A DNA stretch of 64,000 nt, taken from NCBI RefSeq assembly GCF_013031405.1, contig NZ_WPZY01000001.1, forward strand, positions 186,001 through 250,000, in the 5' to 3' direction. A program made the position numbers and the translations under genes. Below the pieces are notes generated by a model. That model had not been told where the DNA came from and did no database searches. It worked only from the letters and a program-made list of their open reading frames with translations. Of this stretch, positions 6,416 to 63,687 are shown one piece after another. The DNA comes from Ruegeria sp. HKCCD8929. Lineage in GTDB: Bacteria > Pseudomonadota > Alphaproteobacteria > Rhodobacterales > Rhodobacteraceae. Numbering within the stretch: the stretch's first letter is position 1; each line of letters begins with the position of its first letter.

Positions 6416-7624
6416 ATGGGTTTGCGCAGCTTCTTTGACCGGATCGAGCCGCACTTCACCAAGGGTGGCCGGTACGAGAAACTCTTTCCCGTCTACGAGA
6501 TGGTCGAGAGCTTTATCTACACGCCGAAAACCGTCACCACCGTGGCGCCGCATGCCCGGTCCTACGTGGATATGAAGCGGATCATGACCTATGTGGTCAT
6601 CGCGACGATCCCCTGCATCTTGTGGGGCATGTGGAATACCGGTTATCAGGCCAATTCGGCGATTGCCGCATTGGGCCCGGAGTCGGCCACGGGCTGGCGG
6701 ATCGCCCTGTTGCAGATGTTTGGCATCTCGCTGGACTCGGCGAGCATCTTTGGCAACGTGATGCACGGATTGCTCTATTTCCTGCCGATCTACATCGTCA
6801 CACTGGTGGCCGGGGGTATCTTCGAGGTTATCTTTGCCACCGTGCGCGGGCACGAGGTAAACGAAGGTTTCCTTGTCACGTCAATGCTCTATGCCCTGAT
6901 CATGCCGGCCACTGCGCCGCTGTGGCAGGTGGCCTTGGGGATCATCTTCGGCGTCGTGATTGGCAAGGAAGTCTTTGGCGGCACCGGCAAGAACTTCCTC
7001 AACCCGGCGCTTGTGGGTCGGGCCTTTCTGTATTTCGCCTATCCCGCCGACATGTCGGGCGATGCCATCTGGACCCCGGTCGACGGGTTCTCGGGCGCGA
7101 CGGCGCTGGCGGTGTCGGCAGCGGATGGCTATCAGGCGCTGGCCGCCGATGGCATCACCTGGTGGAGCGCGTTCTACGGCACCATTCAGGGCAGCTTCGG
7201 CGAGACCTCGACGCTGGCCTGCATCATCGGGCTGGCCTTTCTGCTGGTCACCAAGATCGCGAATTATCGCCTGATCGTGGGCTGTCTGGCGGGCACGATC
7301 GTGTTTACGTGGCTGTTGAATCTGATCGGGTCGGACACCAACCCGATGTTCGCCTTGCCGTGGTATTGGCACATCGTGCTGGGCGGTTATGCCTTTGGTC
7401 TGGCCTTCATGGTGACCGAGCCGGTGTCGGCCAGCCACACCAACATGGGGCGCTATATCTATGGCGCGCTGATCGGTGTCATGGTTGTGTTGATCCGGGT
7501 CGTGAACCCAGCTTTCCCCGAAGGCATGATGCTGGCAATCCTGTTCGGGAACGTCTTTGCCCCGCTGATCGACCATTTCGTCGTGCAGGCCAATATCAAA
7601 CGGAGGGCGCGTCGCCATGTCTGA
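6416..7624 (+). CDS. nqrB: Na+-NQR subunit B (FMN-binding membrane subunit)
   Basis: Polytopic inner-membrane subunit, 402 aa, carrying covalent FMN and non-covalent riboflavin and lining the Na+ path. The flavinylation motif DGFSGATALA is present, with the acceptor threonine at residue 229 (Vibrio Thr236). About ten hydrophobic segments are visible. It overlaps nqrC by 8 bp, consistent with translational coupling. The FMN must be attached by an ApbE flavin transferase, which is not encoded in this window. Confidence 0.97.
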   Translation: MGLRSFFDRIEPHFTKGGRYEKLFPVYEMVESFIYTPKTVTTVAPHARSYVDMKRIMTYVVIATIPCILWGMWNTGYQANSAIAALGPESATGWRIALLQMFGISLDSASIFGNVMHGLLYFLPIYIVTLVAGGIFEVIFATVRGHEVNEGFLVTSMLYALIMPATAPLWQVALGIIFGVVIGKEVFGGTGKNFLNPALVGRAFLYFAYPADMSGDAIWTPVDGFSGATALAVSAADGYQALAADGITWWSAFYGTIQGSFGETSTLACIIGLAFLLVTKIANYRLIVGCLAGTIVFTWLLNLIGSDTNPMFALPWYWHIVLGGYAFGLAFMVTEPVSASHTNMGRYIYGALIGVMVVLIRVVNPAFPEGMMLAILFGNVFAPLIDHFVVQANIKRRARRHV

Positions 7625-8420
7625 CACGCAGAACAAGGGCCTTATCGCCCGGTTCCTGGCAGCCTCGCCGGACTCGGTTGGCAAGACGATCATCGTCGCA
7701 GTTGCGGTATGTCTTGTGGCCTCGATGATCGTTTCGGCAGCGGCGGTCAGCCTGCGCCCGGTGCAGGAGGCCAACAAGCTCAAGGACAAGCAGGTGAACA
7801 TCCTACAGGTGGCGGGAGTCTACGAGCCCGGCATCAACGTGGGCGAGGCCTTTGCCGCGTTCGAGCCGCAGGTGCTGGAACTGGAAAGCGGCGCGTTCAC
7901 GGATCAGTTCGATGCAGCAACCTTTGACGATCTGGCCGCGGCCAGCGATCCTGAGTTGAGCGTCGCCCTTGCCGACGATCCTGCGGGTATTGGCCGCAAG
8001 GCGAAGTATCGCGTGATCTATCTGCTGCGCGACGACGCGGGCGGGCTGGACAAGGTGATCCTGCCGATCCACGGCTACGGGCTGTGGTCCACGCTCTATG
8101 GCTTCATCGCGCTTGAGGCCAATGGCAACGATATCTACGGCCTGCAATTCTATCAGCATGGCGAAACCCCGGGCCTTGGCGCCGAGGTGGACAACCCGCG
8201 CTGGAAGACCCTGTGGCAGGGCAAGCGGCTGCATGACGATGCGGGTAATCTGCAGATCACCGTCGCCAGGTCGCAGCCCGCCGCCGGTGCCGATCACCAT
8301 ATCGACGGGCTGGCCGGAGCGACGCTGACCACGGTTGGTGTCGACAACCTGGTGAAATTCTGGATGGGCGATCAGGGATACGCCCCGTTCCTGGCGAAAC
8401 TGCAAGCGGGAGAGATCTGA
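7617..8420 (+). CDS. nqrC: Na+-NQR subunit C (covalent FMN subunit)
   Basis: Membrane-anchored periplasmic flavoprotein, 267 aa. One N-terminal membrane segment lies at about residues 22-45. The C-terminal FMN-binding motif is [10 protein letters not shown], with predicted flavinylated Thr236; an alanine replaces the more common serine of SGAT. It overlaps nqrB by 8 bp, and its last base is the first of nqrD. Electron transfer within NQR passes through this FMN after NqrF. Confidence 0.96.
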
Positions 8421-9073
8421 TGTCCCAGACCAAGAAAGAGCTGTTGGTCGATCCACTTGTCGACAACAACCCGATCACGCTGCAGGTGCTGGGCATCTGT
8501 TCGGCGCCGGCGGTGACCTCGTCGTTGCAGGTGGCGTTCGTCATGGCGCTGGCGGTGACCTTCGTAACTGGCTTTGCGTCGATGTTCATCTCGATCCTGC
8601 GCAACCAGATCCCCGGCTCGATCCGGATCATTGTACAGATGGTGATCATCGCCTCGCTGGTGATCCTGGTGGACCAGATCCTGAAGGCATACGCCTTCCA
8701 GATCTCGAAAACCCTGTCGGTCTTCGTGGGCCTGATCATTACCAACTGCATCGTGATGGGCCGCGCCGAGGCCTTTGCAATGAAAAACCCGCCTATGGCG
8801 TCCTTCATTGACGGTGTCGGCAACGGGATGGGTTATGGCCTGATCCTGCTGTTGGTGGGTTTCATTCGCGAATTGTTCGGCGCCGGGTCGCTGTTCGGTG
8901 TCACCATTCTGGAGACCGTGAACAACGGTGGCTGGTATGTGCCCAACGGCATGCTGCTGCTGCCGCCTTCGGCGTTCTTTATCATCGGTCTGATCATCTG
9001 GGCCTTCCGCACGTGGAAGCCGGACCAGATCGAAGAACGTGAATACAAGATCCAGTCGGTGGAGGCGCACTGA
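8420..9073 (+). CDS. nqrD: Na+-NQR subunit D
   Basis: Small polytopic membrane subunit, 217 aa, with about six membrane segments. Cys27 (VLGICSAPA) and Cys110 (IITNCIVMG) sit in the half-helices that, with two cysteines of NqrE, hold the intramembrane iron centre known from Vibrio NQR. Its ends share single bases with nqrC and nqrE, an extremely compact arrangement. Confidence 0.96.
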
Positions 9074-9681
9074 TGGAAGGGCTCATCTCGCTGGCCGTCA
9101 AGGCCATCTTTGTCGAAAACCTGGCGCTCAGCTTCTTCCTCGGCATGTGTACCTTCATCGCGGTGTCGAAAAAGATCTCGACCGCGCTGGGCCTGGGGAT
9201 TTCGGTGATGGTCGTGCAGGCGATCACCGTGCCGACGAACAACCTGTTGCTGACCTACCTGCTGAAACCGGGCGCGCTGGCCTGGGCCGGGTTCCCGGAT
9301 GTGGATCTGACCTTTCTCGGACTGATTTCCTATATCGGTGTGATCGCGGCGATGGTGCAGATCCTGGAGATGATCCTCGACAAGTACTTCCCGCCGCTCT
9401 ACAACGCGCTGGGGATCTTCCTGCCACTGATCACTGTGAACTGCGCCATTCTTGGCGGGTCGCTCTTCATGGTGGAACGCGACTATAACTTTGCCGAGGC
9501 GGCGACCTATGGTTTGTCCTCCGGCTTTGGCTGGGCGCTGGCCATCACCGCGATGGCGGGCGTGCGCGAAAAGCTGAAATATTCGGACATTCCGGACGGG
9601 CTGCAGGGCCTTGGTATCACCTTCATCACCGCGGGGCTGATGGCGATGGCCTTCATGTCCTTCTCGGGCGTCAAACTGTAA
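9073..9681 (+). CDS. nqrE: Na+-NQR subunit E
   Basis: Paralogue and partner of NqrD, 202 aa, with about six membrane segments and inverted topology. Cys26 (FLGMCTFIA) and Cys124 (TVNCAILGG) supply the other two ligands of the intramembrane iron centre, so all four expected cysteines are present in the operon. 10 bp separate it from nqrF. Confidence 0.96.
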
Positions 9682-9691
9682 GGGGGCGGGA

Positions 9692-10912
9692 ATGGAAACT
9701 TTCAGTCTTGGGGTCGCCCTCTTTACCCTGATCGTTCTGGCGCTGGTGGCCATCATCATGATGGCCCGCTCGCGGTTGGTCTCGACCGGCAACGTCAACA
9801 TCACCATCAACGGTGAGAAGACCATCTCGGTCCCTGCGGGGGGCAAGCTGCTGCAGACGCTGGCCGCCGAGAAACTGTTCGTGCCGTCGGCCTGCGGCGG
9901 CGGTGGGACCTGCGCGCAATGCCGCGTGCGTGTGCATTCGGGCGGCGGTTCGATCCTGCCGACCGAGGAAAGTCATATCACCAAGCGTGAAGCCTCCTGC
10001 GGTGACCGCCTGTCCTGTCAGGTTGCGGTCAAGCAGGACATGGATATCGAGGTTCCCGAAGAGGTATTCGGCGTCAAGAAATGGGAATGCACCGTCCGGT
10101 CGAACGACAATGTGGCGACCTTTATCAAAGCGCTGACGCTGGACCTGCCCGAGGGCGAGGACGTGAACTTCCGCGCCGGCGGTTACATCCAGATCGAAGC
10201 GCCCGCGCACCAGCTGTCCTATACCGATTTCGACGTTCAGGAGGAGTATCGCGAGGATTGGGACAAGTTCAATCTGTGGCAATACAAGTCCGTAGTGGCC
10301 GAACCGATCGAACGCGCCTATTCGATGGCGAACTACCCCGAAGAGCGCGGCATGATCATGCTGAACGTCCGCGTGGCCTCACCGCCGCCGGGGTCGGAAG
10401 GCATCCCGCCGGGTCAGATGTCGTCCTACATCTTCTACCTGAAACCGGGCGACAAGGTCACGATCTCGGGTCCGTTTGGCGAGTTCTTCGCCCGAGACAC
10501 GGAGAAGGAGATGGTGTTCATCGGCGGTGGCGCCGGCATGGCACCGATGCGCAGCCACATCTTCGACCAGCTCAAGCGGCTGGGCTCCAAACGCAAGATT
10601 TCGTTCTGGTATGGTGCGCGTTCGAAGAAAGAGATGTTCTTTGTCGAGGATTTCGACACGCTGGCCGCCGAAAACCCGAATTTCGAATGGCACGTGGCAC
10701 TGAGCGACCCACAGCCGGACGACGATTGGGATGGCTACACCGGGTTCATTCACAACGTTCTGTTCGAGGAATACCTCAAGAACCACCCCGCGCCTGAGGA
10801 TTGTGAATTCTACATGTGCGGGCCGCCGATCATGAACCAGTCGGTCATCAACATGCTGCTGGATCTGGGCGTGGACCGCGAAGACATCATGCTCGACGAT
10901 TTTGGCGGGTAA
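9692..10912 (+). CDS. nqrF: Na+-NQR subunit F (NADH dehydrogenase, FAD and [2Fe-2S])
   Basis: Electron-input subunit, 406 aa. One N-terminal membrane helix spans residues 5-25. The plant-type ferredoxin domain has Cys68, Cys74, Cys77 and Cys109 ([10 protein letters not shown] plus RLSCQ). FAD binding is by RAYSM (208-212), and NADH binding by GGGAGMAP (278-285) and CGPP near the C-terminus. Last gene of the operon; a hairpin terminator follows within 10 bp. The usual downstream partners nqrM and apbE are not here, so they must be elsewhere if the complex is functional. Confidence 0.97.
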
Positions 10913-53979: not shown

Positions 53980-54411
53980 ATGACGGTGCGCAGTTTTTCC
54001 AAACCTGTTGATACCCCGCCCAGCCCTCGGTCGCGGGTGGTGCGGTTTCTTGGCGCGGGCGTCATCAACACCGCATTTGGCTACAGCGTGTTTGCAGCGC
54101 TGGTGTTTCTGGGTGCGCATCCGCAGGTTGCTCTGATCGTGCAGTTCGTGATCGGTGTGATCTGGAACTACTGGATTCATGGCCGCTATGTCTTCGGCGT
54201 GCGTGGATACGCCCGGCTGCCGCTATACGCGCTCTCCTACGTCATCATCTATTTTGCGAATGCCTTTCTGCTGCGCGCATTCATGGTCGCTGGCCTCAAT
54301 GCCTATCTGGCGCAGGCGGTGGCGCTCGGGCCGGTGGTGATCTTGTCTTATGTGATGATCTCTCATGCTTTGGGTGTTCGGCCCGGGGCGAAGGGGGATG
54401 AGCAGCTATGA
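53980..54411 (+). CDS. GtrA-family membrane protein (polyprenyl-phosphate-sugar flippase candidate)
   Basis: 143 aa with four membrane helices, the GtrA signature VRFLGAGVINTAFGYSVF near the N-terminus and WNYWIHGRYVFG in the middle. In three-component Gtr systems GtrA flips undecaprenyl-phosphate-linked sugar made by GtrB. Its last four bases overlap the start of a GT-C transferase gene, and a GtrB-like GT2 lies further down the operon. Confidence 0.9.
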   Translation: MTVRSFSKPVDTPPSPRSRVVRFLGAGVINTAFGYSVFAALVFLGAHPQVALIVQFVIGVIWNYWIHGRYVFGVRGYARLPLYALSYVIIYFANAFLLRAFMVAGLNAYLAQAVALGPVVILSYVMISHALGVRPGAKGDEQL

Positions 54412-56051
54412 GCGCGACCGATATCCGCGACGCTGTGCAGGAGGACGAGCACGGCATGAAACAGCACCTGACCTTGCGCATGATCCGCGTAGGTGCGGTG
54501 GCATTGATGTTGGGCCTGTTGGCGGCGGCGATCTATGGCCGGATGATGAGCTTCGGTTTGCGCCGGGACGAGATGATGTTTGTGACCCCGGCGGAACTGC
54601 TGGGGCAGTGGCAGCTTTATCGCGACTTCTTCTACAATCATGTGCCCAATTCCGCTTGGTTCTTCCGGGGTTTCCATCTGCTGTTCGAAGATCAGGGTCT
54701 GCTGGGTTCGGCCCGGCTGGGCGTGTTCTTTGCCTGGCTTCTTTTGGTCAGCGGTCTGGGGTGGGTCACCTATCGGATTTCGCACTCGGCCGTCTTGGGC
54801 CTGTTCTTTCCGGTGGCGCTTATGGCGTGCGAGCCTTTGCTGACGCAGGCCGGTATGGCGGCGACCAACAACCTGCTGCCCTTGCCGTTTGCGGTACTTG
54901 GGCTGGGTCTGTTCGTTTCTGAGACGCTGGGAAATCGCCCGCGCAAGATAATACTTGTGATCGCTGGGATCTGTCTGTCCATCGCGGCGGGCATGAAGGT
55001 CAGCGCCATCATGTTCATTCCGCCGATCGCAATCGGGGCCTTTTTCCTGCCCCGTGAGATGTCGAGCGAGTACCGTCTCACCAAGGTGGTCGTGCCGTTG
55101 GTCCTGGGCGGACTGATCGGTGCGGTACCGCTATTCTGGTATCTGGGGGCCGATCCGCAGCTGTTTCTGGCCCATGTGGTCAAGTTCCACACCGGCCCGC
55201 ATGTGGAATACTGGCAGGTCAATGCCGCCTCCGAGCCCGGGCTTGCGATGGGACTGGCTGGCAAGGTGCAGTTGGCCTACGGCGCATGGTTGTCCGGCGT
55301 CGGGCTGGTCATGACGATGGTTTTGTTCTTCCTGATCTGGGTGGCCCTGCGTGACACCAGCTCGGGCGACGTGCTGGAAGAGTCGTATCGGGGTCAGATC
55401 CTGGTGGTACTGGGCGTGCTGGCTCTGACCGCCGGAATGAGCCTGGTGCCCACACCCGGCTTCCCGCAATACTACATTCAGCCGCTGGTCTGCCTGCCCA
55501 TCCTGTGCGCCATAGTCTATCGTCGCCTGCTGCATGTTCACCGCCGCGAGGTCATGCCGATCTTTGGTGCCGGTCTGCTTGTCTTGGTATTGCTCGGACT
55601 GCCGCGTCTGGCGCCCGGATTGCTGGCACTGACTGAACCCGGCAAGTTTACCACCGCCAAGGTTGCTCGGGGCGGTGAGGCCCTGCGTCAGGTTCTGGCA
55701 GAAAACGGCAATTCCGATGGGCCGGTTGCAACCCTCTTTCCGCTTTATCCGCTTGAAGCCGGGTTGCCGGTTTACGGCGAATTCGCAACAGGGCCGTTCG
55801 CCTATCGCATCGCGCCCTTTACCGACCCGGTGCTGGCCAATGAATACCAGATGGTGGGCGAGGACGGTTTGACCGCGCTCTTCGATGCCAATCCCCCGTC
55901 CGCATTCCTGTTGGGTTACGACCCCGCGCTTGAGGCCCCGCTGCAGCGCTATGCAGAGGCAAACGGGTATCAGCCGGTCGAAGTCGAAGGGCTGAAAAAC
56001 CGTTACGGTCAGGGGATCGTGTACATGAAAGACCCGGAGGTGTCGCAATGA
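54408..56051 (+). CDS. GT-C superfamily membrane glycosyltransferase (GT39/ArnT-like)
   Basis: 547 aa, about 11 membrane helices with a soluble C-terminal part (from about residue 400). The first periplasmic loop carries LRRDEMMF, with Asp54-Glu55 in the place of the GT-C acidic catalytic motif. Such enzymes use polyprenyl-phosphate sugars in the periplasm. Overlap with gtrA (ATGA) suggests that it uses the sugar GtrA delivers. No family-level substrate can be read. Confidence 0.82.
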   Translation: MSATDIRDAVQEDEHGMKQHLTLRMIRVGAVALMLGLLAAAIYGRMMSFGLRRDEMMFVTPAELLGQWQLYRDFFYNHVPNSAWFFRGFHLLFEDQGLLGSARLGVFFAWLLLVSGLGWVTYRISHSAVLGLFFPVALMACEPLLTQAGMAATNNLLPLPFAVLGLGLFVSETLGNRPRKIILVIAGICLSIAAGMKVSAIMFIPPIAIGAFFLPREMSSEYRLTKVVVPLVLGGLIGAVPLFWYLGADPQLFLAHVVKFHTGPHVEYWQVNAASEPGLAMGLAGKVQLAYGAWLSGVGLVMTMVLFFLIWVALRDTSSGDVLEESYRGQILVVLGVLALTAGMSLVPTPGFPQYYIQPLVCLPILCAIVYRRLLHVHRREVMPIFGAGLLVLVLLGLPRLAPGLLALTEPGKFTTAKVARGGEALRQVLAENGNSDGPVATLFPLYPLEAGLPVYGEFATGPFAYRIAPFTDPVLANEYQMVGEDGLTALFDANPPSAFLLGYDPALEAPLQRYAEANGYQPVEVEGLKNRYGQGIVYMKDPEVSQ

Positions 56052-56169
56052 CCGGCACGGCGGGCAAAAAGATCTCGAAGGAAGGGAGAGGGATTGGGCT
56101 GACCAAGCAGGTGGCCTGATTTCATGTGTGTTCTTTTTTGTTATTAGTAAGTTAGAGGAAGGAAAGACA

Positions 56170-56979
56170 ATGAAAACGGTACTTTTGGCTGGTGGACTGG
56201 GTTCACGGCTGGCCGAAGAAACGGTCTCCATCCCCAAGCCGATGGTAGAAGTCGGCGGGCGCCCGATCATTGCCCGCGTGATGGACATCTACAGCCATTT
56301 CGGCCATCGCGATTTTGTCGTGGCCGCCGGATACAAGGCGCTGCTGCTCAAGCAGTTCTTTGCCAACTATCACCTGATTGCGAACAACATCTCGGTGTCG
56401 CTGGACACCGGTGAGCTCAAGCTGGTGCCAACCGCCCCGGGCGGCTGGAACGTATCCGTTGTGGATACCGGTGCGCATACCATGACCAGTGGTCGCATCC
56501 GGCGCCTGAAAGAGTGGCTCGATCCCGGCGAGACCTTCATGTGCACCTATTCCGACGGGCTGGGTAACATCGACATCAATGCGCTGATCGAGTTCCACAA
56601 ATCGCATGGCAAGCTGGCCACCGTGACTGCGGTGCAGCCACCCGCGCGCTTTGGCAATATCGAACTCAAAGGCGACCGGGTCGATGCCTTTACCGAAAAG
56701 GTGCGCAAGCGCGAAACCTGGATCAACGGCGGGTTCTTCGTCTTTGAGCCGGGCGTCATGGACTATATGGTCGACGACATGGAGCCGCTGGAGCAGTCGC
56801 CGCTGACCCAGATGGCCCGCGATGGTGAGTTGATGGCGTTCAAGCACGCCGGATTCTGGCATCCGATGGACACTATCCGTGATCGTGCCACGCTGAACGG
56901 GCTGTGCGATGAAGAGACGCCGCCCTGGATGAACTTCGACGATGAAGCGCCGGCAAGCTATCCGGCTTTGGCGATCTGA
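56170..56979 (+). CDS. rfbF: Glucose-1-phosphate cytidylyltransferase
   Basis: 269 aa; makes CDP-glucose from CTP and glucose 1-phosphate. N-terminal nucleotide motif LAGGLGSRL, IPKPMVEVGGRPI with the catalytic lysine, and family segments GNIELKGDRVDAFTEK and WINGGFFVFEPGVMDY. The ATG at 56170 has AGGAAGGAAAG just upstream and gives the family N-terminus. Followed 7 bp later by rfbG, so the first two steps of the CDP-dideoxyhexose pathway are together. Confidence 0.96.
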   Translation: MKTVLLAGGLGSRLAEETVSIPKPMVEVGGRPIIARVMDIYSHFGHRDFVVAAGYKALLLKQFFANYHLIANNISVSLDTGELKLVPTAPGGWNVSVVDTGAHTMTSGRIRRLKEWLDPGETFMCTYSDGLGNIDINALIEFHKSHGKLATVTAVQPPARFGNIELKGDRVDAFTEKVRKRETWINGGFFVFEPGVMDYMVDDMEPLEQSPLTQMARDGELMAFKHAGFWHPMDTIRDRATLNGLCDEETPPWMNFDDEAPASYPALAI

Positions 56980-56986
56980 GGTGAAC

Positions 56987-58123
56987 ATGGCTGGTCAGGT
57001 TGATCCCATCTTCGGCGGCATTTTTTCGGGCCGCCGTGTCCTTGTCACCGGGCATAGCGGGTTCAAGGGTGGTTGGCTGTCGGTCTGGCTGTATCGGCTG
57101 GGCGCGCAGTTGACCGGCGTGTCGCTGCCGCCCGAGAAGGGGCCGTCGTTTTATGACGCCTGTGGCTTGCCGGTGATCATGGACAGCCGCTTTGCCGATA
57201 TCCGCGACCCTGCCGCCCTGCAAAAGGCGTTAGCGGATGTCGATGCCGAGGTGGTGTTTCACATGGCGGCTCAACCTTTGGTGCGGCGGTCCTACCGGGA
57301 GCCGGCCGAGACCTTTGCCACCAACGTGTCAGGCACGGCCCACGTGCTGGATGCGGCGCTGAAGATGAAGTCGCTCAAGGCCGTCGTGGTTGTCACCAGT
57401 GATAAGTGCTACGACAACAAAGAGTGGACCTGGGGCTATCGCGAAAACGATCCCATGGGGGGCAGGGATCCGTACAGCGCTTCGAAGGGCTGTACCGAGC
57501 TTGTTGCTCAGGCCTATCAGCACTCGTTCTTTGGCGATCCGCAGGGGCCACAGCTGACCACGGTTCGCGCGGGCAACGTGTTCGGTGGCGGCGACTGGGG
57601 CGAGGATCGGCTGGTGCCGGATATCGTGCGGTCGGCCGAGGCGGGCAAGCCTCTGCATATCCGCAGCCCGTTCAGCGTGCGTCCCTGGCAGCATGTGCTG
57701 GAGCCGATTTCCGGCTATCTGGGGCTGGCTGCCAAGCTGTTGGAAAAAGGCCAGCCATTTGCCGGGCCCTGGAATTTTGGGCCGGACGTGTCCGGCACGG
57801 TCAATGTGCGCAATCTGGCGATGATGATGCAGCATTCCTGGGGCGCTGGAGCGCCGGAATTCACGTTCCACCACACCGGCGACGGCCCGCCGGACGGGAT
57901 GCACGAAGCCGGCATTCTGCGGCTGGATAGCACCAAGGCGCAGACCCGGCTGGGCTGGCGCCCGCAGCTGGACCTGCCCGAGGCGATCCAGCTGACGGTG
58001 GACTGGTATCGGTCACATGCCGCCGGAGAAGCCATGGCCGGGATCACCGATGCCCAGATCGGCCATTACAGCAACCTGATGTCATCGGACATGTTCGACC
58101 GGGCCACGGTCGCCGCGCAGTGA
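56987..58123 (+). CDS. rfbG: CDP-glucose 4,6-dehydratase
   Basis: 378-aa extended SDR converting CDP-glucose to CDP-4-keto-6-deoxyglucose. NAD fold VTGHSGFKGGWL (20-31), Ser/Thr in VVTSDKCY, and the catalytic Tyr163-x3-Lys167 (DPYSASKG). HSGFKG and ENDPMGGRDPYSASKG are specific to this family. The ATG at 56987 follows GAGGTG by 3-4 nt. Confidence 0.96.
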   Translation: MAGQVDPIFGGIFSGRRVLVTGHSGFKGGWLSVWLYRLGAQLTGVSLPPEKGPSFYDACGLPVIMDSRFADIRDPAALQKALADVDAEVVFHMAAQPLVRRSYREPAETFATNVSGTAHVLDAALKMKSLKAVVVVTSDKCYDNKEWTWGYRENDPMGGRDPYSASKGCTELVAQAYQHSFFGDPQGPQLTTVRAGNVFGGGDWGEDRLVPDIVRSAEAGKPLHIRSPFSVRPWQHVLEPISGYLGLAAKLLEKGQPFAGPWNFGPDVSGTVNVRNLAMMMQHSWGAGAPEFTFHHTGDGPPDGMHEAGILRLDSTKAQTRLGWRPQLDLPEAIQLTVDWYRSHAAGEAMAGITDAQIGHYSNLMSSDMFDRATVAAQ

Positions 58124-58153
58124 AGGCGCGGGTTTATTGAGGAGAAGAATTAT

Positions 58154-59359
58154 ATGCGAGTAAATTACGGTCAGACCGTTCACGGCCAGGAAGAGATCGA
58201 CGCCGTGGTCGAGGTGCTCAAGACCTCGACACAGATGGGGCCGAAGGTCCGGGAGATGCAGGAAAAGGTCTCGGCGCTTTTTGCCAAGAACCATGGCGTC
58301 ATGGTCAACTCCGGTTCGTCGGCCAATTATCTGGCGGTCGAGATTCTGGATCTGCCCAAGGGCAGCGAAGTCATTACTCCGGCACTCACGTTTGCCACCA
58401 CCGTTGCGCCGCTGGTCCGGCAGGGGCTGATCCCGGTTTTTGTGGATGCTGCCCCCGGCACCTACAATATCGATGTGGACGCGATCGAGCGGATGATTAC
58501 CCCCAACACATCCGCTGTGATGATCCCATCGCTGATCGGCAACCTGCCGGACTGGCGGCGCATTCGTGAACTGGCCGATGCCCATGGACTAAAGGTGATC
58601 GAGGACAGCGCCGACACGCTGGGCGCAACCATCGACGGGACCAGCACCGGGGTCTACTCTGACGTTTCGACCACCAGCTTCTATGGCAGTCACGTTATCA
58701 ACGGGGCGGGCAATGGCGGCATGTTGTGTGTCAACGACGATGAGCTGGCCCGCAAGGCGCTCCTGCTGCGCTCGTGGGGCCGCAGCTCGTCGCTGTTCGT
58801 GGAATCCGAGGCCATCGAAAACCGCTTCAACGTCAAGCTGGATGACATTGAATACGATGCCAAATTCCTGTTTGAGGATCTGGGTTACAATGTCGAACCC
58901 TCCGAGATCAGCGCCGCCTTTGGGTTGGTACAACTGGGCAAGCTGGACAACAACATCCGCGTGCGCGAAGAGAGCTTTGACGCGCATCGCGCCTTCTTTG
59001 CCCGTTACGAGGACTGGTTCATTCTGCCCGAGCAGTTGCCCGGATCGCGGACCGGCTGGCTTGCCTTTCCGCTGACCTTGCGGCCCGGCGCGCCATTTAC
59101 CCGGCGGCAGATGCAGATCTTCCTTGAAACTGCGGACATCCAGACCCGCCCCGTCTTTACCGGCAACATCCTGCGGCAACCGGCGATGAAAGACGTCGAA
59201 TACCGTGCAGACCCGGCCGGCTATCCCGTTGCCGATGCCGTAATGCGTGGCGGTATCCTGCTGGCCTGTCATCACGGGCTGACACAGGCGCATATCGATT
59301 ACATGCACGGCAAGTTTGACGAGTTCGCCACGCAACATCAAAAGGAGCTGGCATCATGA
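58154..59359 (+). CDS. DegT-family sugar 3-dehydratase (RfbH/ColD-like, His instead of PLP lysine)
   Basis: 401 aa. In the active-site segment SFYGSHVINGAGNGG the PLP-lysine position is His180, the hallmark of 3-dehydratases (E1/RfbH and ColD) that use PMP or PLP without an aldimine lysine. After SWGR the canonical RfbH has the cysteine motif for a [2Fe-2S] cluster; here it reads SWGRSSSLFVESEAIENRF, with no cysteine. So it should not work like classical E1 with an E3 reductase; a ColD-like, cluster-free C3-deoxygenation is more likely. Stop overlaps the next start (ATGA). Confidence 0.85.
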   Translation: MRVNYGQTVHGQEEIDAVVEVLKTSTQMGPKVREMQEKVSALFAKNHGVMVNSGSSANYLAVEILDLPKGSEVITPALTFATTVAPLVRQGLIPVFVDAAPGTYNIDVDAIERMITPNTSAVMIPSLIGNLPDWRRIRELADAHGLKVIEDSADTLGATIDGTSTGVYSDVSTTSFYGSHVINGAGNGGMLCVNDDELARKALLLRSWGRSSSLFVESEAIENRFNVKLDDIEYDAKFLFEDLGYNVEPSEISAAFGLVQLGKLDNNIRVREESFDAHRAFFARYEDWFILPEQLPGSRTGWLAFPLTLRPGAPFTRRQMQIFLETADIQTRPVFTGNILRQPAMKDVEYRADPAGYPVADAVMRGGILLACHHGLTQAHIDYMHGKFDEFATQHQKELAS

Positions 59360-60600
59360 ACCAGCAGTTCATCAGACCATCGGTACGGACAACTTGCCGG
59401 GCATGCAGCTCGGACAACCTGATGCTGGTATTGCCGATGGGTGATCATCCCCCGGCGAATATGTTTGTGCGCGCGGATGAGCGCGAGCAGCCGCAACCGG
59501 CATTCCCGCTGAACACGCAGGCCTGTCTGGATTGCGGCCTGATTCAGGTCGCCGATCAGGTGCCGCCGGATTTCTTCACCGATTACCTGTACGTCCCCTC
59601 GGGGGCGGCGACAATGCACACGCATTTCGCCGGTCTGGCACAGGTTTGCGTGGACCGGGCAGATGGAGGCCTGATCGTCGATATCGGCTGCAATGACGGG
59701 CTGATGCTGTCTCACGCGAACGGTCTCGGCGGAAGGACACTCGGCATTGATCCTGCCGCCAATCTGGCACGGATTGCAGCCGAGCGTGGGGTGAGGGTTC
59801 ACACGGACTTTTTCAACCCCAAAACGGCGCGCGAGGTGCGTGACGCGGAAGGCCCGGCCAAGGTCATCACCACCACCAACACCTTCAACCATATCGACGA
59901 CCTCCACGGTTTTGCCGAGGGCGTTCTGGCGCTGCTCGAAGATGACGGTGTCTTTATCATCGAAGTGCCGTGGGGCAAGGCGATCCTTGAAACCAATGAG
60001 TTCGACAACGTCTATCACGAACATCTGTCCGAGCTGAGCCTGCTGTCGATCGTGCGGCTGGGCGAGGCCGTTGGTCTGGACGTGGTCGATGTGACAAAGC
60101 TGCCGGTTCATGGTGGGTCCATGCGGGTCTTCATGCAGCCTGCGGCGCTGAAACAATCGCCTGCTCCCATCGTCGGCTCGATGCTGGAGGAAGAGAAGGC
60201 GGCTGGCATGACCCGCCGGGAAAGCTATGAGGCGTTCGCGGGCCGCGTGCAGGAACTGGGCGATACCCTGACCCGGATTCTGGCCCAGATCAAGGCAAGC
60301 GGTAAGACGGTTGCGGGTTATGGTGCGCCGGCCAAGGGCAATACGTTGCTCAACTATTTCGGCATCGGCCCGGACACGCTGGATTTCCTGGTGGACCGCA
60401 ACCCGCTGAAACAGGGCCTGTATTCGCCGGGCATGATGATCCCGGTTCTGTCACCGGATGCAGTCGAAGAGCACAAGCCGGACTATCTGCTGGTTCTGGC
60501 CTGGAACTTCTTCGACGAGATCCGCGAGCAGATGGCGGATTTCGAGGCCCGGGGTGGCAAGTTCATCGTGCCACTGCCGATGCCGGTGGTCATTCCCTGA
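59356..60600 (+). CDS. SAM-dependent sugar C-methyltransferase (TylC3/NovU-like)
   Basis: 414 aa with the three-part architecture of keto-sugar C-methyltransferases. The N-terminal zinc domain has Cys14, Cys17, Cys57 and Cys60 (CRAC...CLDC). The SAM domain has IVDIGCNDGLML. Tyr220-His221-Glu222-His223 (VYHEHLSELS) is the conserved catalytic loop. The C-terminal Methyltransf_14 domain has VAGYGAPAKGNTLLNYFG. Known members methylate carbon 3 (or 5) next to a 4-keto group. Placed directly after the CDP-4-keto pathway genes, it probably builds a branched-chain CDP-sugar. Confidence 0.92.
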   Translation: MNQQFIRPSVRTTCRACSSDNLMLVLPMGDHPPANMFVRADEREQPQPAFPLNTQACLDCGLIQVADQVPPDFFTDYLYVPSGAATMHTHFAGLAQVCVDRADGGLIVDIGCNDGLMLSHANGLGGRTLGIDPAANLARIAAERGVRVHTDFFNPKTAREVRDAEGPAKVITTTNTFNHIDDLHGFAEGVLALLEDDGVFIIEVPWGKAILETNEFDNVYHEHLSELSLLSIVRLGEAVGLDVVDVTKLPVHGGSMRVFMQPAALKQSPAPIVGSMLEEEKAAGMTRRESYEAFAGRVQELGDTLTRILAQIKASGKTVAGYGAPAKGNTLLNYFGIGPDTLDFLVDRNPLKQGLYSPGMMIPVLSPDAVEEHKPDYLLVLAWNFFDEIREQMADFEARGGKFIVPLPMPVVIP

Positions 60601-60610
60601 GGAAGCAACG

Positions 60611-61582
60611 ATGGCACGCGTACTGATAACCGGAGCGACCGGATTTATCGGATCACATCTGGCCCGGGCCTGTCTGGCCCGGGGCGATGAGGTTTCGGTT
60701 ATCGCGCGGCCTGCCTCATCGCTGGTCCGGCTGGCGGATGTCTCGGGCCGGATCGCCGTGCATCGCCTGGACCTGGCCGAGGCTGACCGGTTGCGCACCT
60801 GTCTGGCACAGGCGCGCCCCGAGATTATCTTTCATGCCGGCGCCAGAACCCGCTATCCGGCGCAGAAGGACCTGACGGACCTTTCGGACAGCGTGACGGA
60901 GAATCTTTCAGGGCTGATCGCGCTGCTTTCCGCTGCTGCGTTTGCTGACGTTCCGCCCCGGGTTTTTGTTCGCACGGGATCGATTGCCGAGTATGGCGAC
61001 ATCGAAACGCCCTATGTCGAAACCGCTCGAGAAGCGCCGCGCAATGCGTATGGTGCGTCCATTCTGGCGGGCACGCAGTATATGGCCATGGCGCGTCCAC
61101 GGTTGCCGTTTCAGGCAGTGACCGCCCGGTTGGCGCTTACCTACGGTCCCGAGCAATCGAGTGATTTTCTCATTCCAAAATTGATTGAAGATTTTCTTGA
61201 TGAAAAACCGGTGACGATCCATCGGCCCCATGACCGGCGTGACTTGATCCATGTCGATGATGTGATCCGCGCCTTGTTGCTGATTGCCGACGACCCTGTG
61301 TCGGCCGGTGCGGTGATCAATGTGGGTACGGGCGATGCCCCCAAAATGGCCGAGGTCGCCCGGATGCTGGTCGCGATGACCGGTGCCCGGCGCGAGTTGG
61401 CGAGCTTTGGAACCCCAGCCGATCCACCGGTCGTGTTGAATTGTGATCCGGGAAAGGTGAAGGCGACGCTTGGGTGGTCGCCGCAGATTCTGCTTCCCGA
61501 AGGTCTGGAAAGGACAGTGCAATGGGCAAGACAATCCCGGGCTCCCCACAGCCAGCCGGTAGCGATGGGGCAGGACGCATGA
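60611..61582 (+). CDS. NAD-dependent epimerase/dehydratase-family SDR, probable 4-ketoreductase or epimerase
   Basis: 323 aa. NAD(P) fold ITGATGFIGSHLARAC and the Ser/Thr segment FVRTGSIAEYG are present. The catalytic tyrosine is Tyr147 (NAYGASILAG), but the lysine expected four residues later is Ile151. This loss of the YxxxK lysine is unusual; the enzyme may rely on another base, bind nucleotide non-productively, or be a reductase with altered mechanism. It starts 11 bp after the C-methyltransferase stop with GAGGAAG as ribosome site, and its stop overlaps the GT2 start. Confidence 0.85.
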   Translation: MARVLITGATGFIGSHLARACLARGDEVSVIARPASSLVRLADVSGRIAVHRLDLAEADRLRTCLAQARPEIIFHAGARTRYPAQKDLTDLSDSVTENLSGLIALLSAAAFADVPPRVFVRTGSIAEYGDIETPYVETAREAPRNAYGASILAGTQYMAMARPRLPFQAVTARLALTYGPEQSSDFLIPKLIEDFLDEKPVTIHRPHDRRDLIHVDDVIRALLLIADDPVSAGAVINVGTGDAPKMAEVARMLVAMTGARRELASFGTPADPPVVLNCDPGKVKATLGWSPQILLPEGLERTVQWARQSRAPHSQPVAMGQDA

Positions 61583-62601
61583 CCACTGTTTCCATCCTCA
61601 TCCCCGCGCTGAACGAAGAGGACAATGTTCGCAATGCGTATGAGCGGGTCATGGCCGTCTTCGATGGCCTGCCGGATTATGAGCCCGAGATCATCTTTAC
61701 CGACAACCACTCGGACGACCGGACCTTTGAGATTCTATCCGAGATCGCAAAGGATGACAGCCGTGTACGTGTGATCCGCTTTTCCCGCAACATGGGGTAT
61801 CAGTCCTCGGTGCTGACGGCTTATCGCTCGGCCACCGGCGCCTGCGCGATACAGATCGACTGCGATTTGCAGGACCCGCCCGAGTTGATCCCGCAAATGC
61901 TGGATACCTGGCGGCAGGGCTATCATGTGGTCTATGGCATCCGGCGCAGCCTGCCGGACGGCCCCATTGTCGCAGCCGCGCGGCGCGGATTCTACGCGCT
62001 GATCGACATGATCAGCAACGACGATTTGCCCCGTAATGCGGGCGAGTTCCGTCTGACCGACCGGCGCATTCTGGATGAACTGCGCCGGGTCGATGATCGC
62101 TCGCCTTATGTGCGGGGTTTGATCAGCGGCATGGGCTTCAACCAGATCGGGTTCGAATATGACCGCGACGCACGCACGGCAGGGGAATCCAAATTCCCGT
62201 TCAAGGCCATGCTGTCGCTGGCGGTGGACGGGCTGATCAACCACTCGTTGCTGCCCCTGCGACTGGCCTCGATGATCAGCCTGACCGTTGGGCTGGTGAC
62301 CTTCCTTCTGATGATGGGATACATCATCGGCAAGGTGGTCTTTGGTCAGGACTGGCCCGCCGGTTTCGCCACCACCACCATCCTGCTGCTGCTCTCGATG
62401 ACGCTGAACGCGATGTTCCTGGGCATACTTGGCGAATATATCGGGCGGATCTTTTTGCAGTCCAAGGATCTGAACAGGCCCATGATCGAACATGAACTGA
62501 ACCGCCCTAAGGCCGAGCCTGAATTGCCGGACCGCGCCAGTTCCGCGCAGCAGGGAAATGCAACGGTCTCCAAACGTGTCATCAATCAGGCGGCGGAGTA
62601 G
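61579..62601 (+). CDS. GT2 polyprenyl-phosphate glycosyltransferase (GtrB/ArnC/DPM1-like)
   Basis: 340 aa. Catalytic GT-A domain with ILIPALNEEDNV and DCDLQD (94-99), followed by two C-terminal membrane helices (about 229-251 and 264-286), as in GtrB and ArnC. It would move a sugar from a nucleotide carrier to undecaprenyl phosphate. With GtrA (53980) and the GT-C protein (54408) it completes a three-component route, here wrapped around the CDP-sugar genes. The ATG overlaps the SDR stop; a longer upstream frame runs through that gene and is rejected. Confidence 0.9.
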   Translation: MTTVSILIPALNEEDNVRNAYERVMAVFDGLPDYEPEIIFTDNHSDDRTFEILSEIAKDDSRVRVIRFSRNMGYQSSVLTAYRSATGACAIQIDCDLQDPPELIPQMLDTWRQGYHVVYGIRRSLPDGPIVAAARRGFYALIDMISNDDLPRNAGEFRLTDRRILDELRRVDDRSPYVRGLISGMGFNQIGFEYDRDARTAGESKFPFKAMLSLAVDGLINHSLLPLRLASMISLTVGLVTFLLMMGYIIGKVVFGQDWPAGFATTTILLLLSMTLNAMFLGILGEYIGRIFLQSKDLNRPMIEHELNRPKAEPELPDRASSAQQGNATVSKRVINQAAE

Positions 62602-62607
62602 CCCGAT

Positions 62608-63687
62608 TTGAAGGTGCTGCTTGTGCAGGGTGGGTTCGGCGCCGGTGGGGCCGAGAAGGTCGTCGCCATGATCGCCGCCCATCGGGCCGGGCGCGGGGAT
62701 GATGTGCACATCGCGGGCATGACAATGCCCGAGGGGGGTTCCTATTTTTCCTATCCAGAAGCAGTGACTCTGCATCCAATGCAGAGCGGCGCGCTGCCCA
62801 GACGGCGCGTGCAATGGAACCGGCTCAAGCATATCCGTCAGGTGATCAAAAAAGTGCGCCCCGATGTGGTGGTATCCTTCCTGACAAAGATCAACACACT
62901 CACTCTGGCAGCGACCCTCGATAATCGCGTCCCTGTCGTCATCTCCGAACGGAACAACCCCCGGGCCCAGAACGCGCATCCGGTTTGGCGGCAGGCCCAG
63001 CATCTGCTGGCGCGCCGGGCGCGGGCGATCGTCATGCAGACGGACCGGGCGCGTGAGGATTTGCCCGCAGGTCTGCGCGGACGGGCCGAGGTCATCGCAA
63101 ACCCCTGCGCCCCGTTCCCGGGTGTTGAGGAAGGTCTTGGCCGCAATGGCAGTCAGCTTGTGGCAGTTGGACGGCTCGACCGGCAAAAAGGGTTCGATAT
63201 CCTCATCGACGCCATGACGGACATTCGGGACCGGGTGCCCGATGTGCATCTTACCATCTACGGCGTGGGATCAGAGCGCTCGGCCTTGGAAGATCAGCGC
63301 GACCGGCTTGGCTTGACGGATGTCGTCTCCATGCCCGGTCCCAGCAAGCAGCCCGGCGATTGGATGAAGGGTGCGGACATCCTCGTTTTTCCTTCGCGTT
63401 TCGAAGGCTTTCCAAATGTTGTCGCCGAAGCAACCGTAAGCGGCTTGCCGGTTGTATCCGCCGATTGCGCCTACGGTCCGCGCGAGTTGATCCGTCAGGA
63501 AGAGAACGGCCTCTTGGTGCCTTCCGAGGACGCAAAGGCGTTGTCGGCAGCGGTGGTGCGTCTGTCGCAGGACCCCGAGTTGCGGGCCAGAATGCGTGAA
63601 TCCGCCGAGCGCAACCGCCTGTGGCTGGCGCCGAAATATGTTCTGGGGGAATGGGACCGGGTGATTGACGGCACTCAGTTCGGGTGA
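62608..63687 (+). CDS. Glycosyltransferase family 4 (GT-B)
   Basis: 359 aa from TTG 62608, with GGAG 11 nt upstream. N-terminal LLVQGGFGAGGAEKVVAMIAAH and C-terminal domain with VAVGRLDRQKGFDILIDA and SRFEGFPNVVAEATVSGLPVV (E-x7-E), followed by GPRELIRQEENGLLV. It belongs to the GalNAc/PglH-like GT4 group. Last gene of the right-hand operon; a convergent HAD-family gene ends 10 bp beyond. Confidence 0.92.
   Translation: MKVLLVQGGFGAGGAEKVVAMIAAHRAGRGDDVHIAGMTMPEGGSYFSYPEAVTLHPMQSGALPRRRVQWNRLKHIRQVIKKVRPDVVVSFLTKINTLTLAATLDNRVPVVISERNNPRAQNAHPVWRQAQHLLARRARAIVMQTDRAREDLPAGLRGRAEVIANPCAPFPGVEEGLGRNGSQLVAVGRLDRQKGFDILIDAMTDIRDRVPDVHLTIYGVGSERSALEDQRDRLGLTDVVSMPGPSKQPGDWMKGADILVFPSRFEGFPNVVAEATVSGLPVVSADCAYGPRELIRQEENGLLVPSEDAKALSAAVVRLSQDPELRARMRESAERNRLWLAPKYVLGEWDRVIDGTQFG

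Follow-up and report, generated by a model that had tools for sequence, protein, structure and literature searches.

An iron-sulfur-free 3-dehydratase candidate and a C-methyltransferase in a CDP-sugar gene cassette of Ruegeria

How could a 3,6-dideoxy sugar bound to cytidine diphosphate (CDP) be made, and then branched by a methyl group, by a gene set whose predicted 3-dehydratase lacks the ligands of an iron-sulfur (Fe-S) cluster? This question is raised by a locus of Ruegeria sp. HKCCD8929 (NZ_WPZY01000001.1, positions 186,001-250,000; this whole stretch of 64,000 nt is called the window). Eight tightly spaced genes on the + strand of the window (53980-62601) encode a GtrA-like protein, a large membrane protein, RfbF, RfbG, a DegT-fold protein, a methyltransferase, a short-chain dehydrogenase/reductase (SDR), and a family 2 glycosyltransferase (GT2). 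Reading frames overlap by four bases at the junctions of GtrA and membrane protein, of DegT and methyltransferase (ATGA), and of SDR and GT2 (ATGA), a pattern that is frequent within single operons. The gene set is present at the positions reported in an earlier note on this DNA, and the rfbF, rfbG, DegT, and methyltransferase families are as described there. This compact set probably builds a rare surface sugar that lacks two oxygens and carries a methyl branch; the best reading, and in our judgement a probable one, is that an Fe-S-free CDP-sugar 3-dehydratase operates together with a C-methyltransferase.

Three 3-dehydratases are presented as well characterised in PMC8987622: E1, which acts on a CDP-sugar and has an Fe-S cluster; ColD, a GDP-4-keto-6-deoxymannose 3-dehydratase that uses guanosine diphosphate (GDP) sugar and has no cluster; and SpnQ, which acts on a thymidine diphosphate (TDP) sugar and has a cluster. 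RfbF and RfbG of the window both pass the curated thresholds of the equivalog models TIGR02623 and TIGR02622, which places them in the CDP-glucose 4,6-dehydratase pathway and supports the view that they provide CDP-4-keto-6-deoxyglucose. In the DegT protein, His180 of the motif SFYGSH lies at the position of the lysine that binds pyridoxal phosphate (PLP) in aminotransferases. An alignment of 74 rows, including 55 rows of the clade of this protein, 13 rows of Fe-S type enzymes, and 3 ColD-like rows (a PDB match to ColD was made for L034 alone), shows His in place of the lysine in 55/55 clade rows and 13/13 Fe-S rows. At each of the four alignment positions where all 13 Fe-S rows have Cys, the protein has another residue (A153, S212, L214, and I221), and its only cysteines, C192 and C372, are at none of the ligand positions. 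The earlier claim that His180 is kept and that every [2Fe-2S] cysteine of RfbH is gone is thereby borne out. The position of S212 is Ser in 55/55 clade rows. Column 153 is Cys also in 6 of the 55 clade rows and in all 3 ColD-like rows, so only three of the four columns are truly diagnostic.

Several residues of the DegT protein, namely S179, E251, and H373, are of the ColD type, and a Ser directly before the catalytic His is shared by 52/55 clade rows and 3/3 ColD-like rows. Specific to the clade near the active site are N187 instead of Glu and a one-residue insertion after the His. The protein reaches 305.8 bits against the curated RfbH model NF011936, under its cut-off of 423, as is also the case for a ColD-like protein (358.4 bits). 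Its best match in both sequence and fold is E1 (PDB 3bcx), with ColD lower in profile score. A tree of the 55 clade rows rather than all 85 loci described below, from which four near-duplicate rows were dropped and whose bootstrap is not fully settled (correlation 0.983), sets the clade apart from the Fe-S E1/RfbH enzymes and from the ColD-like enzymes; it and the ColD-like sequences form distinct clades (100/100 and 100/98). The separate clade, the three ColD-type residues, and YerE-like neighbours at 5 of the 85 loci lend comparative support to the proposal of an Fe-S-free, His-type 3-dehydratase on a CDP route. As an observation apart, the divergent relatives of L017, L018, and L042 (44-49% identity) have SFSIFH or SFAMAH replacing SFYGSH and perhaps another function; L042 is a Rhodococcus plasmid on which no cassette genes were found near the DegT relative.

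A profile of the clade gave at least 571 relatives in GTDB species genomes (E ≤1e-3), not all of which are shown to belong to the clade. The best 80 of these, together with five plasmid loci, make up the 85 loci. The E1 cysteine motif is present in none of the 85; the His motif matched as a pattern in 84, and SFYGSH is likewise present in the 85th, so all 85 keep the His. In 77/85 loci, rfbF or rfbG is no more than 9 kb from the DegT gene, and in 73/85 both are; neither is found within this distance in L042, L111, L114, L116, L117, L118, L121, and L123. Predicted enzymes similar to this DegT protein are found in many bacteria. At E ≤1e-100, a match occurs in 11 of 385 genomes of the sampled class and, in the sample of the same family, in 4 of 295 (the genome of the window being counted in each), which indicates that the cassette is accessory.

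The relatives occur in three settings. In the first, 53/85 loci have rfbF, rfbG, and relatives of the SDR and GT2 all within 9 kb of DegT, mostly in the same order, which is more than chance would give. These 53 cassettes all have a relative of the membrane protein within 9 kb (tblastn), on the opposite strand in some. The methyltransferase is optional, being present in 37/53 and absent from 16/53; its place is taken by another methyltransferase in L045 and by an acyltransferase in L049 and L050, and in some other cassettes of this kind, e.g., L041, L046, and L047, the SDR directly follows DegT. In the second setting, five gammaproteobacterial loci (L094, L096, L100, L102, and L106) carry a thiamine pyrophosphate (TPP) enzyme and two SDRs near DegT. 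The TPP enzyme of L094 scores 437.8 bits against JanthE, a YerE-like enzyme according to PMC12188165, and 251 bits against the best acetolactate synthase. YerE joins its donor to CDP-3,6-dideoxy-4-keto-glucose, as stated in PMC12247030, and the occurrence of YerE-like enzymes beside an Fe-S-free DegT protein suggests that yersiniose-type sugars may be made without E1. In the third setting, an RmlD-like reductase gene precedes the DegT gene in twelve Bacteroidota loci (the RmlD domain was checked in two). We infer that a 4-keto 3,6-dideoxy sugar would serve as substrate for one enzyme of each setting, by family resemblance only in the first and third. Five of the Bacteroidota loci (L111, L114, L116, L117, and L118) combine DegT and the RmlD-like reductase with neither rfbF nor rfbG within 9 kb.

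The methyltransferase has three domains above cut-off, PF08421 (Methyltransf_13), PF13489 (Methyltransf_23), and PF08484 (Methyltransf_14), and carries the zinc motif CRAC...CLDCG and the motif VYHEH; the zinc cysteines and the Y-x-E-H residues are presumably catalytic. It is the sole PF08484 match of the genome. Its best PDB match is D-mycarose 3-C-methyltransferase (4rv9, 4.8e-93), an enzyme of the TylC3 type, in agreement with the earlier assignment. Its nearest relative outside the clade cassettes in the sampled genomes (51% identity) is found in L158 (G294), where an E3-like reductase, rfbF, rfbG, an Fe-S E1, an SDR with YAASK, the methyltransferase, and an SDR without the lysine lie at 4.1-11.5 kb. 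The position of this relative beside a classical Fe-S 3-dehydratase argues that this group of methyltransferases acts on a 3-deoxy sugar, and this comparison favours the earlier view that the methyltransferase and the 3-dehydratase belong to one route. Weaker support comes from a 48% relative (L175/L191) that is adjacent to rfbF and at least ~7.5 kb away from both rfbG and an Fe-S type RfbH gene.

Taken together, the families and residues are consistent with the following scheme. RfbF and RfbG would yield CDP-4-keto-6-deoxyglucose. The DegT protein would hold pyridoxamine phosphate (PMP), with His180 in place of the lysine, form a Schiff base at C4, and expel the C3 hydroxyl; hydrolysis, not electron transfer, would free its product, and glutamate would restore PMP as it does for ColD. 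The result would be CDP-4-keto-3,6-dideoxyhexose, made with neither an Fe-S cluster nor E3. The TylC3-type enzyme would then methylate the carbon adjoining the ketone, most likely C3, and the SDR would act on the ketone or on a centre beside it. The GT2 could load the sugar onto polyprenyl phosphate, GtrA could flip it, and the large membrane protein could add it to a surface polysaccharide. Gene order, families, residues, and co-occurrence are what the DNA displays directly; the reactions, the methylation site, the stereochemistry, and the delivery are predicted from them. The scheme predicts a 3-C-methyl-3,6-dideoxyhexose, or, should the SDR be no reductase, the corresponding 4-keto sugar.

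The earlier note had pointed to the lack of an E3 reductase gene. It is correct that no E3-like protein is encoded within the window: the genome has five FAD_binding_6 matches, and the one inside the window is a Fer2+FAD+NAD protein (9692-10912), read as NqrF because NqrC- and Rnf/Nqr-like genes precede it (7617-10912). An E3 like that of L158 is likewise found in none of the 85 clade loci. However, it was detected in only one of 17 loci with an Fe-S type RfbH and undetected in the other 16, in a control that used a single query (the L158 protein, E ≤1e-10), which a divergent or distant E3 could escape, and in which the stretches L180, L182, L188, and L189 are cut by contig ends. The absence of E3 is therefore not diagnostic, and its use as evidence for an Fe-S-free mechanism was rejected. 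GtrB-type enzymes use a uridine diphosphate (UDP) sugar, according to PMC11127046, so that a CDP donor would be unusual. Distant Methyltransf_14 proteins (38-40% identity) adjoin rfbF and rfbG in L164, L165, and L166, where no 3-dehydratase was found, indicating that the family overall is not tied to 3-deoxy sugars.

The last observation bears on the alternative that survives best, although we regard it as unlikely: methyltransferase and DegT protein could act in parallel on CDP-4-keto-6-deoxyglucose, giving a 3-C-methyl-6-deoxyhexose (virenose- or vinelose-like) and a plain 3,6-dideoxyhexose. TylC3-type enzymes usually take a sugar that bears a C3 substituent, as this alternative would have it, and the place of the 48% relative beside rfbF in L175 is compatible with it. 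Virenose is a 3-C-methyl-6-deoxy sugar (PMC3539893). However, the set has just one SDR and one GT2, and the ATGA overlap joins the methyltransferase to DegT, with a 3-dehydratase cluster also surrounding the nearest outside relative in L158. On plasmids, a methyltransferase match at E ≤1e-90 adjoins a clade DegT gene in 17/17 records, and of 23 records whose DegT match reaches 73% identity or more, 6 contain no such methyltransferase; many of these records are near-copies and the counts are thus not independent. This asymmetry, in which the methyltransferase is always accompanied by DegT and DegT is sometimes without it, is expected of a step downstream of DegT.

If the sequential route by dehydration and methylation is preferred, the methyl group might still go to another position or atom, since no sequence feature that was read fixes the carbon. 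We give this little weight: among its 10 PDB matches, every entry with a descriptive name is a sugar 3-C-methyltransferase (the rest being named TcaB9 or 'methyltransferase'), and at least 38 of 39 aligned methyltransferase sequences share Y220, E222, and H223. A marginally less probable alternative is that the DegT protein transaminates, either as a plain aminotransferase or as a dual enzyme like SpnQ, and that the product is a C-methylated amino sugar. Its relatives on the annotated plasmids examined are labelled merely as aminotransferase, in fold comparison, aminotransferases come close to E1 and ColD in score, and SpnQ can transaminate when its reductase is absent, as reported in PMC8987622. 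Against this, the same paper gives no transferase activity for ColD and E1 under those conditions, His replaces the PLP lysine in 55/55 clade rows, and YerE-like genes, whose archetype couples its donor to a ketone (PMC12247030), lie near five members. It is very improbable that the clade catalyses a different reaction of the 4-keto sugar, for example epimerisation, with neighbours coincidental to dehydration: N187 and the inserted residue would fit such a change, but the same kinds of partner, a YerE-like enzyme and a Methyltransf_14 protein, accompany both the Fe-S E1 and this clade.

The genes for the dehydration and methylation steps are accompanied in the cassette by genes that could complete and deliver the sugar (Table 1). 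The earlier note had the gene set right but omitted the lysine-less SDR, which lies within the range it covered, and the flanking GtrA, membrane protein, and GT2 genes. The SDR (60611-61582) departs from the Ser/Thr-Tyr-(x3)-Lys pattern only at the Lys. This position is M, L, I, A, or F in 53/53 cassette rows (L039-L093), all of which keep the catalytic Ser/Thr and 52 of which keep the Tyr; it is Gln in L122 and L158, and Lys appears only once among the aligned relatives, in a gene of L110 with just 24% identity. Arg121 and Arg173 are invariant in 53/53 rows. The only SDR of the cassette being without its catalytic lysine, the product might be a 4-ulose.

Table 1. Genes of the predicted CDP-sugar cassette and the gene that follows it (positions in the window)
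Feature	Position	Strand	Evidence
GtrA-like membrane protein, proposed polyprenyl-phosphate sugar flippase	53980..54411	+	PF04138 6.1e-13
Large membrane protein, probable GT-C type glycosyltransferase	54408..56051	+	~11 hydrophobic segments, RRDE near N-terminus
RfbF, glucose-1-phosphate cytidylyltransferase	56170..56979	+	TIGR02623 315.6 bits, cut-off 300.25
RfbG, CDP-glucose 4,6-dehydratase	56987..58123	+	TIGR02622 446.9 bits, cut-off 278.45; PDB 1rkx 2.1e-110
DegT-fold, His180-type, Fe-S-free predicted CDP-4-keto-6-deoxyglucose 3-dehydratase	58154..59359	+	401 aa; residues, profile/fold match, tree
TylC3-type sugar C-methyltransferase: zinc domain, S-adenosylmethionine domain, Methyltransf_14	59356..60600	+	start overlaps DegT stop (ATGA)
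Extended SDR, Ser124 + Tyr147, without YxxxK lysine; predicted to act on 4-keto CDP-sugar, reaction unsure	60611..61582	+	
GT2 polyprenyl-phosphate glycosyltransferase-like (GtrB/ArnC/PgfS type)	61579..62601	+	PF00535; two C-terminal hydrophobic segments
GT4 glycosyltransferase, next gene, not in every cassette	62608..63687	+	PF00534

The large membrane protein has no Pfam match, and its orthologues are annotated as 'glycosyltransferase family 39' in L040 and as 'hypothetical protein' in L039. The best NCBIfam models for the GT2, PgfS (201 bits) and ArnC (135 bits), are both below cut-off. Relatives of GtrA were found by hidden Markov model anywhere in the locus in 47/53 cassettes. GtrA, the large membrane protein, and the GT2 resemble a three-component periplasmic glycosylation module and may deliver the sugar. 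On the 5' side of the cassette, polysaccharide export, flippase-like, sulfotransferase, and nucleotide-sugar dehydratase genes mark a surface-polysaccharide region.

If the scheme is correct, a CDP enzyme without an Fe-S cluster is a combination outside E1, ColD, and SpnQ, and the two release chemistries would seem exchangeable within one pathway, with a single protein opening a route to 3,6-dideoxy sugars that needs no Fe-S cluster. The enzyme type seems common, given the at least 571 relatives, not all shown as clade members, and its pairing with the C-methyltransferase would predict a sugar to be sought in the polysaccharides of marine bacteria. Abstract-level searches of the open-licence literature, which are no proof of absence, found neither this enzyme class nor 3-C-methyl-3,6-dideoxyhexose, nor an experimental test of a similar DegT enzyme; the word vinelose was not found in that literature either. 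We propose tentatively, with somewhat less than even confidence, that the clade represents a fourth class of nucleotide-sugar 3-dehydratase, resembling E1 in its CDP specificity and ColD in being Fe-S-free and glutamate-driven. It would feed a self-contained, exchangeable cassette making a previously undescribed 3-C-methyl-3,6-dideoxyhexose (or its 4-ulose), with delivery by a GtrA-type, polyprenyl-phosphate route that would start from a CDP donor.

Among the known systems, the DegT protein is closest to E1 (DdhC, RfbH) in its fold, catalytic His, equivalent of D154, and CDP route with RfbF and RfbG. It differs from E1 in having none of the [2Fe-2S] cysteines, no E3 in the locus, a score below the family cut-off, a clade of its own, and the insertion after the His. 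With ColD (PDB 2gms), it shares the Ser-preceded His, Glu at 251, His at 373, the lack of an Fe-S motif, and the expected glutamate-driven chemistry, whereas its context is CDP rather than GDP, it falls outside the ColD-like clade, and its profile score is higher to E1. SpnQ is likewise a His-type 3-dehydratase, but has an Fe-S cluster and is paired with ferredoxin or flavodoxin reductase systems, according to PMC8987622. The branching of yersiniose by YerE would start from the same predicted intermediate, CDP-3,6-dideoxy-4-keto-glucose; the branch expected here is a one-carbon unit from S-adenosylmethionine beside the ketone, not a two-carbon unit on it, and no YerE-like gene is in this locus. 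The methyltransferase resembles TylC3, TcaB9, and KijD1 in its three domains, zinc cysteines, and YHEH region. TylC3 and KijD1 act on TDP-sugars, whereas the predicted substrate here is a CDP-sugar without a C3 oxygen. The CDP-vinelose and virenose routes also lead to a C-methylated 6-deoxy nucleotide sugar, but retain the C3 oxygen. Finally, the predicted delivery genes resemble the GtrA, GtrB, and Gtr(type) components in having a GtrA family member (PF04138), a GT2 with C-terminal hydrophobic segments, and a multi-pass membrane protein; a CDP-sugar is expected as the donor here, unlike the UDP-sugar of the GtrB-type enzymes described in PMC11127046.

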